Assembly (NCBI RefSeq): GCF_021295345.1
Contig: NZ_JAIMJB010000004.1
Span: forward strand, 184,567-248,566
Direction: 5' to 3'
Length of the DNA stretch: 64,000 nucleotides
Source: Motilimonas eburnea
Lineage (GTDB): Bacteria; Pseudomonadota; Gammaproteobacteria; Enterobacterales; CBDFNC01
Translations under genes and position numbers: made by a program
In this document: piece by piece, positions 47,590 to 54,804 of the stretch
How positions within the stretch are numbered: the first letter of the stretch is position 1
Layout of the letters: every line of letters starts with the position of its first letter
Notes under the pieces: model-generated
What the model was told of the DNA's origin: nothing
Databases searched by the model: none
What the model saw: the letters and a program-made list of their open reading frames with translations, nothing else

Positions 47590-48900
47590 TTAGGCGGGTG
47601 GCTCGTATTGAAAGCGAAAAGTGACCACGCGATTACGCCCCTTAGACTTAGCCTTATACAGCGCTTCGTCAGCTCTTGCGATAAACTCACCAGTGCTTTC
47701 TTGCCCCATCTGCGTGACACCAAAGCTGGATGTGACCTTCATACCACTTGGCCATTGGTGCTGCTCCATCGACACTCGGATATTTTCCGCCAATTTAGTG
47801 GCACTGTCGATTTCTGTATTAGGGCAGACTAATAAAAACTCTTCTCCGCCCCAGCGCACTAAACTGTCACCTTGTCGCGTTTTACTGGTGACTAAACCAG
47901 CAAATTCTTTTAATACTTCATCACCTACGTCGTGACCAAAATTATCATTGATCATTTTAAAGTGATCGATATCCATAAAGATGATCGACAAAGGCGTTTT
48001 TTGCAGATAAACCAACTGCACTTGTTCAAACAACGAGTCTCGGATCCCCGCCCGATTTCTGGCCCCCGTTAGTGGGTCTCGCTTGGCCATGGTTTCAAAC
48101 TTCTTGCTTTCTAGTTTAAGCGCTTCCGTTAACGACTCGAGCTCAAGGGCCTTTTGCTTACTTTGAAACAGAGCGCCTCTTAAACGCTTAAGGTCAAACA
48201 GTAGATACAACACAGCAAACGCAACCCAAGTGACGATTATAATGGTCAGAAACAGGGTTTCAGGGATCAGCTTGCCATCAAATCGAATTTGCTCAACAAT
48301 TATTTTGATTGGGCCTTCACTGACAAGGCTACCGGTTGCAATTTCAATGACAGAGACATTGCTAAAATCCGGGGCAAAATGCTCTAGTGGGATACTGTTT
48401 TCTGAAATCCACCAAGATGCCACGCTGAAGTTTTGTAAGGGGATGACCACTTCTGAGCGATAGTTATTGGGCTCATACTCAACCTCATTTACCTTCATGG
48501 TCGCGTCATTATGAATATCGGTATAGGAAGGGTGGTAGTTGCGAATGTAGAAACGGATACGCTTTGAGCCCTCTCCCTCAAATCGAGCATTGACCGCCAC
48601 CGTGTCGTACTCTGAAATGTCAATGCCTTCACCGATATCGGCTAACTTAATGGCTAATTCACAAAACGGCCATTGGTAAGCTTTAACCACATTACATTCT
48701 AGTACTAAGGCTTGTGGAGTACGGGAAAGCTTTGCTGTGGTTTGCCCGCCTTGAGACTGATCGGTAATGGCCTTAACTTGAAAATCTGTCGATGAATCTA
48801 TCACCAAGCTTTTATTAAAGCTGTGCTCATAAGCAAAGAGTGCACTTATGGTCAGCAACACTAAGCATAGTAATCCTGTACTGATGGACTTTGACTGCAT
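47590..48900 (-). CDS. Membrane-bound diguanylate cyclase with extracytoplasmic sensor domain
   Basis: The 436-residue protein has an N-terminal TM (about 8-24), a periplasmic beta-sandwich resembling a carbohydrate-binding domain (about 40-215, YDTVAVNARFEGEGSKRIRFYIRNY), a second TM (about 223-243), a short coiled coil and a C-terminal GGDEF domain with intact GGEEF (RWGGEEFLLV) and DPLTGARNR. The catalytic loop suggests active c-di-GMP synthesis. The start at 48900 has GAGGAG upstream; the ORF upstream to 48927 adds nine unlikely residues. Confidence 0.92.
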   Translation of the reverse strand: MQSKSISTGLLCLVLLTISALFAYEHSFNKSLVIDSSTDFQVKAITDQSQGGQTTAKLSRTPQALVLECNVVKAYQWPFCELAIKLADIGEGIDISEYDTVAVNARFEGEGSKRIRFYIRNYHPSYTDIHNDATMKVNEVEYEPNNYRSEVVIPLQNFSVASWWISENSIPLEHFAPDFSNVSVIEIATGSLVSEGPIKIIVEQIRFDGKLIPETLFLTIIIVTWVAFAVLYLLFDLKRLRGALFQSKQKALELESLTEALKLESKKFETMAKRDPLTGARNRAGIRDSLFEQVQLVYLQKTPLSIIFMDIDHFKMINDNFGHDVGDEVLKEFAGLVTSKTRQGDSLVRWGGEEFLLVCPNTEIDSATKLAENIRVSMEQHQWPSGMKVTSSFGVTQMGQESTGEFIARADEALYKAKSKGRNRVVTFRFQYEPPA

Positions 48901-49082
48901 TACACTCTCCTCAGGGGGCACAAACAAATAATAGTATTAAGTTAATCATAATCTCCCTTTCGTTACGCTCGAGTCAAATAAATAAAAAAACATCTTGCTA
49001 ACAAAAATATCTATAGAATACAAAATCAACGGATATAGATCGACACATGAAGAAGCAGTTGCGCAATCGTGTGCTTTGCCTC

Positions 49083-49197: not shown

Positions 49198-49593
49198 TTA
49201 CTCTTGCTCCTCTTCAATCAGTTCTTGGTAATCATGCACATCCATTAGATCATCTAACTCACTGATATCATCAGGTCGAACTTGAATGATCCAGCCATCA
49301 TCATAGGGATCAGCGTTAATCAAGGTAGGTGAATCCGCCAGGTCTTCGTTACATTCAATGATGTCACCCGAAATAGGCGAAAAAATATCGATATTGGTTT
49401 GTTCTGCTTCAACTGCAATGCATTCGTCACCTACATCAAGATGCTCACCCACTGAGGGTGCATCGAGGCTGTATATCGTTCCTAATGCCTGTTGAACGTG
49501 GTCAGTTAGCCCTAACGTAACCGTGCCATCCTCTTCAGGGCGCACCCACAGGTGAGCATCGGTGTATTTCAAATCCGTTGGCAAGTGGCTCAT
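49198..49593 (-). CDS. GcvH-like protein lacking the lipoyl lysine
   Basis: A 131-residue protein that aligns without gaps to E. coli GcvH (129 residues) over its first ~125 residues: MSHLPTDLKYTDAHLWVR, EEDGTVTLGLTDHVQQALGTI, PISGDIIECNEDLADSPTLIN, DPYDDGWIIQV. The lipoylated Lys65 of E. coli (ESVKAASD) is Gln65 here (EAEQTNID), and the codon is CAA. So it cannot carry lipoate in the known way. A clear SD GGAGAGA precedes the ATG and the frame is intact. The gcvT and gcvP genes that flank gcvH next to ubiI in relatives are absent from the window. A moonlighting paralogue or a relic protein are both possible. Confidence 0.85.
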   Translation of the reverse strand: MSHLPTDLKYTDAHLWVRPEEDGTVTLGLTDHVQQALGTIYSLDAPSVGEHLDVGDECIAVEAEQTNIDIFSPISGDIIECNEDLADSPTLINADPYDDGWIIQVRPDDISELDDLMDVHDYQELIEEEQE

Positions 49594-49744
49594 TTATCTC
49601 TCCAGATAAGCAAAAATAAACACAAGATTATTTCTACTGAGCGTAGCTAAAGCAGCGTTATCTGCAAGGAAAAATTGTTAGCCTAGATCGCAATCCAATG
49701 AGTTTCCGTTAGTTTAACCATGATGGCTACCAAGCCAAGTCAGG

Positions 49745-50950
49745 TTAACGTGCTAACTTGGGAAGCTCTCCCACCAAGCCAGTTGCGTGGGCGAGTAGAC
49801 GCTGTTTAAGCAAAGGCGTGTTATCAACCAGCTTTAGGCCAATGTCTCGGACAAACTTTTGCAATGGATGCTTACCACTAAAGCCTTGTTTCAGCGCTTC
49901 CATCGCCGCAATCATTTCTACCGCTTGCGTCTTGCGCCAGCGCTCATAGCTTCTTAAATGTGGATACAAGCCAATATCAAATCCCGAATCAAGGTTCTCA
50001 CTAATGGTTTGAGCCAGTGCTGCTGCATCCATTAAGCCAAGGTTAACCCCCTGACCTGCCAATGGGTGTATGGTATGGGCAGCGTCCCCTACCAGCGCCA
50101 CACGGTGTTTTGCGAAATCACGTGCGAAACGCATCGTTAAAGGCACACAAGCACGTTTGCCTAACACTTGGGTTAAGCCCAATTTATTGTCAAAAGCCAT
50201 GGTGAGCTGACGATTAAACGACTCATCATCCAGTGCCATCAAGTCCTTGGCTTGTTCTGGGCTGGCCGACCACACAATTGAACTATGGTGGGCATTAAAT
50301 AAGGGTAAAAATGCAAGTGGCCCGTCGGGTCTAAAAATTTGCCAAGCCGTTTGTTGATGAGAAGCTTGGGTTTCAACGGTAGCAACAATGGCATGATGCT
50401 GATAATCCCTTGACGTTAACGGGATCCCTGCATGTGATCGCAACCAGGATTGCGCGCCATCCGCGCCAACAACTAACTTGGCCGTGAGTGCTTGACCATT
50501 ATCTAAGGTGAGCCAAGCTTCGCCTTCACCCATGGCGAGCTGTGCAACACGCCTAGGGCAAAACAGGGTAAGATTGGCTTGTTGCGCAATAGACTGAGAT
50601 AAGGCCAGTTGAATATTACGATTTTCAATGATGTGGCCTAACTCGGACAACTTACCTTGCTGGGCGTTAAAATGTAACTCGCCAAAACTGTCTTGCTCCC
50701 AAACCTGCATTTGGTGATAAGGCTGCACGCGAGAGAGTGCTAATTGCGACCAAGCTCCTATGTTGGTCAAAAAGTTTTGGCTGGCTCGGTTGATAGCACT
50801 GACGCGATTATCGGCCAACGCATATAATTGAGGATCTAATTCGCGACTTTCAATCACGGCGATACTGATGGGGGAATTATGTAAAGCGCGCGCTAGCGCG
50901 AGCCCCACCATGCCGCCACCTAAAATAACTAAATCAAAAGAACGCATCAT
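49745..50950 (-). CDS. ubiI: Ubiquinone biosynthesis FAD-dependent hydroxylase (UbiI/VisC)
   Basis: The 401-residue flavoprotein monooxygenase is expected to hydroxylate C5 of the ubiquinone ring. FAD-binding GGGMVGLALARAL (about 11-23), the middle VVGADGAQSWLR and the GD motif VALVGDAAHTIHPLAGQGVNLGL are all present. Identification as UbiI rather than UbiH rests on order (downstream of ubiH as in E. coli) and SAINRASQNFLTNIGAW plus IIENRNIQLAL. The start overlaps the ubiH stop by 4 bp (ATGA). Confidence 0.9.
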   Translation of the reverse strand: MMRSFDLVILGGGMVGLALARALHNSPISIAVIESRELDPQLYALADNRVSAINRASQNFLTNIGAWSQLALSRVQPYHQMQVWEQDSFGELHFNAQQGKLSELGHIIENRNIQLALSQSIAQQANLTLFCPRRVAQLAMGEGEAWLTLDNGQALTAKLVVGADGAQSWLRSHAGIPLTSRDYQHHAIVATVETQASHQQTAWQIFRPDGPLAFLPLFNAHHSSIVWSASPEQAKDLMALDDESFNRQLTMAFDNKLGLTQVLGKRACVPLTMRFARDFAKHRVALVGDAAHTIHPLAGQGVNLGLMDAAALAQTISENLDSGFDIGLYPHLRSYERWRKTQAVEMIAAMEALKQGFSGKHPLQKFVRDIGLKLVDNTPLLKQRLLAHATGLVGELPKLAR

Positions 50951-54576: not shown

Positions 54577-54593
54577 ATCGACAATCAGTTTGA

Positions 54594-54774
54594 ATTTCCT
54601 GGGGTGTTTGTCAATATGGTGACGTCCCTGAGCCGATAATTACAACATCGGGGATTTTGCTTACTGCTATTGCGCAGGCTCAGCATGTACTGAGAAGCCT
54701 ACGGTAGTGACAAAATCACCACCTTGAGCCGTCGGGTTCAAGGGCTAAAACCATGTAACGGCATCCTGGGTTCC
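54594..54774 (+). ncRNA. ssrS: 6S RNA
   Basis: A ~181-nt RNA that binds sigma70-RNA polymerase. Segments match E. coli 6S RNA: 5' ATTTCCTGGGGTG (E. coli ATTTCTCTGAGATG), CCCTGAGCCGATA, GAGAAGCCTACGG, CACCTTGAGCC, GGGTTCAAGGG and 3' GGCATCCTGGGTTCC that pairs with the 5' end. The position between zapA and fau is the conserved one. The ends are set by pairing and are accurate to a few bases. Confidence 0.95.
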
Positions 54775-54804
54775 TTACTTCTAACACGTGCTAACGGCAA
54801 AGGC

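Follow-up and report, generated by a model that had tools for sequence, protein, structure and literature searches.

The window analysed here, a 64,000 nt stretch of contig NZ_JAIMJB010000004.1 from Motilimonas eburnea, carries an orphan homologue of gcvH between a ubiI-type FAD hydroxylase gene and a GGDEF-domain gene (Table 1). An earlier sequence-only reading had given the interval of this gene correctly; its strand is corrected to minus, as the plus strand holds seven stops over 49198-49593, and the open frame runs from an ATG at 49593 to 49198. The 131 aa product matches the Pfam GCV_H profile (PF01597) at 6.7e-37 and passes TIGR00527, the NCBI equivalog model for GcvH, with 130.2 bits against a cut-off of 115.85; the gap-free alignment with E. 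coli GcvH described earlier holds. AlphaFold2 predicts an H-protein fold with a pLDDT of 91.7; the best match of this model in the PDB is 3ab9 (TM 0.93), and it superimposes on the lipoylated and apo E. coli H-protein with TM scores of 0.93-0.94. The replacement of the lipoylated Lys65 by Gln65, the central claim of the sequence-only reading, is borne out by the codon itself, which differs by one base (C for A) from the AAA of both sister species, M. cestriensis and Motilimonas sp. E26, the nearest relatives in the contig scan. The sole lysine left in the M. eburnea protein is Lys9; it is Arg in strain E26, which rules out lipoylation through another lysine as a conserved site.

Table 1. Features at the gcvH locus of M. 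eburnea, in positions of the window.
Feature	Position	Strand	Basis or remark
GGDEF-domain gene	47590..48927	-	downstream neighbour in 4/4 Motilimonas
Orphan gcvH homologue, 131 aa, lysine-less lipoyl site	49198..49593	-	profile matches, ORF, predicted fold
Remodelled lipoyl hairpin, residues 60-71, AVEAEQTNIDIF	49381..49416	-	alignment; order consensus V.ESVKAASD.Y
Codon 65, CAA (Gln), replacing the lipoyl-Lys codon	49399..49401	-	AAA in both sister species
Remodelled face, residues 33-45	49459..49497	-	order-invariant A33, L36, D39, M40, V41, F42 replaced in 3/3 gcvH-bearing Motilimonas
GGAGAG, Shine-Dalgarno-like sequence	49598..49603	-	GGAGAG in sisters too
TACGCT, putative -10 element, 16-nt spacer	49640..49645	-	upstream alignment; common to three species
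TTGCAG, putative -35 element	49662..49667	-	upstream alignment; common to three species
ubiI-type FAD hydroxylase gene	49745..50950	-	gene upstream; indicates the ancestral ubiI-gcvTHP locus

The gene is intact and preceded by a Shine-Dalgarno-like sequence, as had been noted. The arrangement TTGCAG-16 nt-TACGCT followed by GGAGAG is common to all three gcvH-bearing Motilimonas species, with the rest of the spacer diverged; a consensus scan did not report the TTGCAG element, and a glycine riboswitch was looked for upstream and not found. Elsewhere in the window, a 6S RNA (Rfam RF00013, 112.8 bits) lies at 54593-54776 on the plus strand, in its usual place between zapA-like and 5-formyltetrahydrofolate cyclo-ligase-like genes.

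In relatives (L036, L037, L039) gcvT adjoins ubiI downstream, and the Motilimonas gene therefore sits at the ancestral ubiI-gcvTHP place, as the sequence-only reading had proposed. The same position behind ubiI is seen in three of the four Motilimonas species (M. eburnea, M. cestriensis and E26); in M. pumila gcvH is gone and the GGDEF gene directly follows ubiI, and a search of this ubiI-GGDEF gap for a gcvH remnant gave no convincing match. Searches of the M. eburnea genome (71 contigs, 4,591,594 bases; completeness 99.95%) found no gcvP, no gcvT and no second GcvH, so hidden copies of any of these are rejected. The other three Motilimonas genomes likewise yielded no gcvP, and no gcvT above threshold; the gcvT matches in these congeners are partial (E ~1e-4), far below the cut-off, and are probably YgfZ-like. 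The absence of gcvT and gcvP first remarked at this locus thus extends across all four genomes. Two options had been offered for it: a second, Lys-bearing GcvH falls away, as there is none in the genome, and the loss of glycine cleavage stands, genus-wide. Among 79 genomes searched in the same order, 26 are without gcvP, and 22 of these are without gcvH too; the four that keep gcvH are the three Motilimonas and G024. The latter genome (1.66 Mb) encodes a GcvH with an intact ESVKAASD motif at L054:7806-8234, without gcvP or gcvT and with an apparent glyA ~3 kb off.

The lipoyl face of the protein is altered well beyond residue 65. The motif ESVKAASD occurs in 30/30 GcvH of the order; E26 and M. 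cestriensis keep Lys65 within DAEKTTVE, and all three gcvH-bearing species have lost the same conserved residues on the face that holds lipoate (E15, A33, D39 and S63–S68). All three depart from the rest of the order at 14 of its 51 invariant GcvH columns, and 12 of the 14 fall within residues 15, 29-45 and 60-71, which form the lipoyl face (Fisher p 0.0005, a descriptive value, as the face was delimited after the alignment had been seen). Residue E15, which we take to be Glu-14 in mature E. coli numbering (the shift by one is our own), is Glu in 30/30 GcvH of the order, Leu in M. eburnea, and Leu or Val in the sisters. In crystal-structure-based simulations, Glu-14 of the mature E. coli H-protein holds the aminomethyl nitrogen (PMC7733448). 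The three Motilimonas proteins group together in the tree (100/99) on a long stem (0.68) inside the gammaproteobacterial part (98/96). As Lys65 is still present in the sisters and the face losses are shared by all three species, release from the glycine cleavage system came first and loss of the lysine later; judged from these alignments, the catalytic signature was erased before the three species diverged, and the lysine was lost afterwards, in M. eburnea only. Given the sisters' altered, lysine-keeping motif, the lysine is the last feature of the lipoyl face to have been lost, rather than the first.

The dN/dS of gcvH, a check that had been suggested, can be measured between the sisters; for E26 vs M. 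cestriensis it is 0.071 (Nei-Gojobori), close to the values of ubiI (0.061), ubiH (0.054) and pepP (0.054), and most neighbouring genes lie at 0.03-0.06. Synonymous sites between M. eburnea and the sisters are saturated and give no dN/dS, so a late relaxation on the M. eburnea branch would be invisible. The dN of gcvH between M. eburnea and the sisters is 0.29-0.31, higher than that of ubiI (0.22) or ubiH (0.27-0.28), and the M. eburnea GcvH branch is ~1.8x the sister branch (0.60 vs ~0.33 in the tree); the same ratio for neighbouring genes runs from ~0.7 to 1.8, and one neighbour equals that of gcvH. The three proteins have no gaps or indels between them. Of the 34 order-invariant columns that both sisters retain, M. 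eburnea retains 28 as well, vs 45/81 for other columns (Fisher p 0.006); among the six constrained columns that did change, K65Q is non-conservative, and I29L, V60A, Y71F, E77D and A119V are conservative. The open frame, the kept columns and the shared promoter-like motif therefore speak against long neutral decay; the M. eburnea gene displays no visible decay, and a very recent release of selection is possible. The sequence-only reading had also considered a kept shell, and by these values the copy is not visibly a decaying one; neutral decay in close relatives, which it had named as evidence against its view, is not seen between E26 and M. cestriensis, and in M. pumila the gene is gone.

Compared to canonical GcvH (E. 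coli 3AB9/3A7L), the M. eburnea protein is alike in fold, length, gap-free alignment (42% identity) and ancestral locus behind ubiI; however, it is without the lipoyl-lysine and the aminomethyl-holding Glu, and its genome is without GcvT and GcvP. Against the canonical lipoyl motif Ex2Kx10G, M. eburnea has Gln65, while in the sisters the lysine is there and the Glu of the motif is Asp. The protein is therefore GcvH by descent and fold and should not be annotated as a working H-protein of glycine cleavage, because the lysine, the glutamate and the GcvP/GcvT partners were all tested and are all absent. Single GcvH-like domains are reused outside glycine cleavage in LbpA of sHdr sulfur oxidation (PMC6067878); however, LbpA has a strictly conserved lysine and a characteristic cysteine pair, whereas M. 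eburnea lacks the lysine, and of its Cys58 and Cys81 only Cys58 is kept in the sisters. Among the neighbours of Motilimonas gcvH, no sHdr genes or dedicated LplA were recognised by eye. GcvH-L of the SirTM/LplA2 operon in Firmicutes is likewise a GcvH-like protein from organisms possibly without glycine cleavage (PMC4518038); it is, however, lipoylated at the lysine of Ex2Kx10G and encoded with LplA2 and SirTM, whereas the neighbours in M. eburnea are ubiI and the GGDEF gene. The NCBI families TIGR03077 (not_gcvH) and NF045810 (GcvH_rel_desulf) are also related to GcvH without being called GcvH; the M. eburnea protein scores 84 and 48 bits for these models, far below their cut-offs of 144 and 150.

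Retention under selection with both the pathway and the lysine gone suggests that the leftover H-protein of M. eburnea took another job. The preferred explanation, to which a probability of roughly 0.55 is given, is that a former glycine-cleavage H-protein persisted after the loss of its pathway and became domesticated, with a role in protein binding that does not depend on lipoyl. By genome comparison, an ancestor of Motilimonas lost gcvT and gcvP from ubiI-gcvTHP, leaving a single gcvH behind ubiI; in an ancestor of the three gcvH-bearing species Glu15, Ala33, Asp39 and the ESVKAAS hairpin were then rewritten with the fold-determining residues kept. Purifying selection continued in the M. 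cestriensis/E26 lineage, as the sisters' dN/dS shows, and, from the retained columns, probably in M. eburnea likewise. Lys65 subsequently became Gln in M. eburnea, leaving a protein predicted not to carry lipoate in the known way, and M. pumila lost the gene. As the lysine is gone in M. eburnea, the present role there would be lipoyl-independent: the protein probably works as a small, rigid adaptor, with the remodelled hairpin face as its binding surface for a partner. Candidate partners are enzymes and other proteins able to recognise lipoyl-type domains, among them dihydrolipoamide dehydrogenase, LipB or a 2-oxoacid dehydrogenase, for which GcvH may serve as a docking or regulatory subunit. 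The fact that M. pumila lives without gcvH counts against domestication, as the gene is dispensable at the genus level.

The gene might instead be a relic in slow decay, having outlasted its pathway by chance or through a former side role; K65Q would then be an early decay mutation that followed the end of selection in M. eburnea, one step behind M. pumila. Such a course would agree with the loss in M. pumila, the lack of a glycine cleavage partner in any congener, the somewhat longer M. eburnea branch and the single base needed for K65Q. It is nevertheless unlikely: the 131-codon frame is intact and without indels at a saturated synonymous distance, whereas simulated neutral frames stay open in 2.7% of cases at a distance of 0.3 and in 0.3% at 1.0; the constrained columns and the promoter-like motif are kept, and the five constrained changes other than K65Q are conservative. 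A sequencing or assembly error, with AAA as the true codon 65, is highly improbable. A single assembly is at hand and C for A makes the whole difference, but the published assembly of the species is from Illumina data (PMC13182010), the frame is open, the surrounding residues have diverged too in a motif altered genus-wide, and an isolated error would be unlikely, a priori, to hit precisely the codon on which function depends; an orphan, remodelled GcvH would in any case stand regardless of codon 65.

It is also conceivable, if rather improbable, that GcvH persists in the genus as a lipoylated carrier outside glycine cleavage, as a lipoyl relay or store or as an acyl or redox shuttle; the sisters would use Lys65 for this and M. 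eburnea would have lost or replaced the function. LipB is present in 4/4 Motilimonas genomes, which favours such a role; it also rules out a need for lipoyl relay through a missing LipB, and the LipB pathway does not require a GcvH relay, which counts against such a carrier. Lys65 is kept in both sisters, and lipoylated carriers of this type do exist, as LbpA (PMC6067878) and GcvH-L (PMC4518038) show; however, a lysine shared by sister proteins at 88% identity carries little weight, it lies within DAEKTTVE, 3/3 species have lost residues holding the lipoyl arm, and conservation in M. eburnea would be left unexplained.

GcvH is usually treated as a lipoate carrier. A genus that keeps GcvH without the pathway, and within it a species without the lysine, suggests that the H fold has a second property, independent of lipoyl; this can be tested, as the genus is marine and cultivable and includes species with and without the lysine. 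There is also a caveat for annotation, as proteins of this kind pass TIGR00527 and are named 'glycine cleavage H', implying a pathway that is absent.

The same contig scan turned up lysine-less GcvH homologues from Deltaproteobacteria and Thermodesulfobacteriota, here termed gcvH*. The sequence-only reading knew of no function for lysine-less GcvH; a precedent in sequence thus exists, and a search of the open-access literature found no function for this family and no description of lysine-less GcvH from either Motilimonas or Deltaproteobacteria. The gene run secDF-murA-moaA-gcvH*-fabD is conserved at about a dozen loci (moaA, gcvH* and fabD at L069:4969-7385, likewise L070-L076, L078-L080 and L083, after secDF and murA); the products (L069 etc.) are 150 aa long, end in an acidic C-terminal tail and have Ser or a hydrophobic residue where the lipoyl lysine would be. 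gcvH* is the only GcvH in 8/8 such genomes searched for others; gcvP was found in 0/13 genomes of the group, most of them metagenome bins of unreported completeness. In the sole GcvH, the undetected gcvP and the replaced lysine this family resembles M. eburnea, and the same columns are changed (E15 to Ile, Met or Leu, A33 to Gly or Ile, D39 lost, F42 to Ser); it is under strong purifying selection, with dN/dS 0.014-0.037 for the three closest pairs. It differs in forming a separate clade, in the one-residue hairpin insertion of its main group, in the acidic tail and in its moaA-gcvH*-fabD context, as opposed to ubiI-gcvH-GGDEF in Motilimonas. A horizontal origin of the Motilimonas gene from this family was rejected, as the tree places it among lysine-bearing gammaproteobacterial GcvH.

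Lysine-less H-proteins may, tentatively, be a recurrent functional class: GcvH would at least twice, in Motilimonas and in Deltaproteobacteria, have been made into a lipoyl-free binder by similar face replacements after loss of glycine cleavage, under strong selection and with a shared, undescribed role. A Desulfobacterales homologue behind moaA (L066:2590-4185, in a bin without gcvP) keeps the lysine (EGRKNFMEL) and has Leu at E15; from these residues it looks like an intermediate, akin to the Motilimonas sisters. At L062:6001-6372, in a moaA-gcvH-fabD context, the lysine is displaced by one position (ETLDKEMEF) and Asp occupies the lipoyl column. A Planctomycetota contig (L086:5027-6315) carries two divergent GcvH-like stretches in tandem, whose lipoyl-column residues are Ser and Glu; the genome concerned also has gcvP and a GcvH that matches better.
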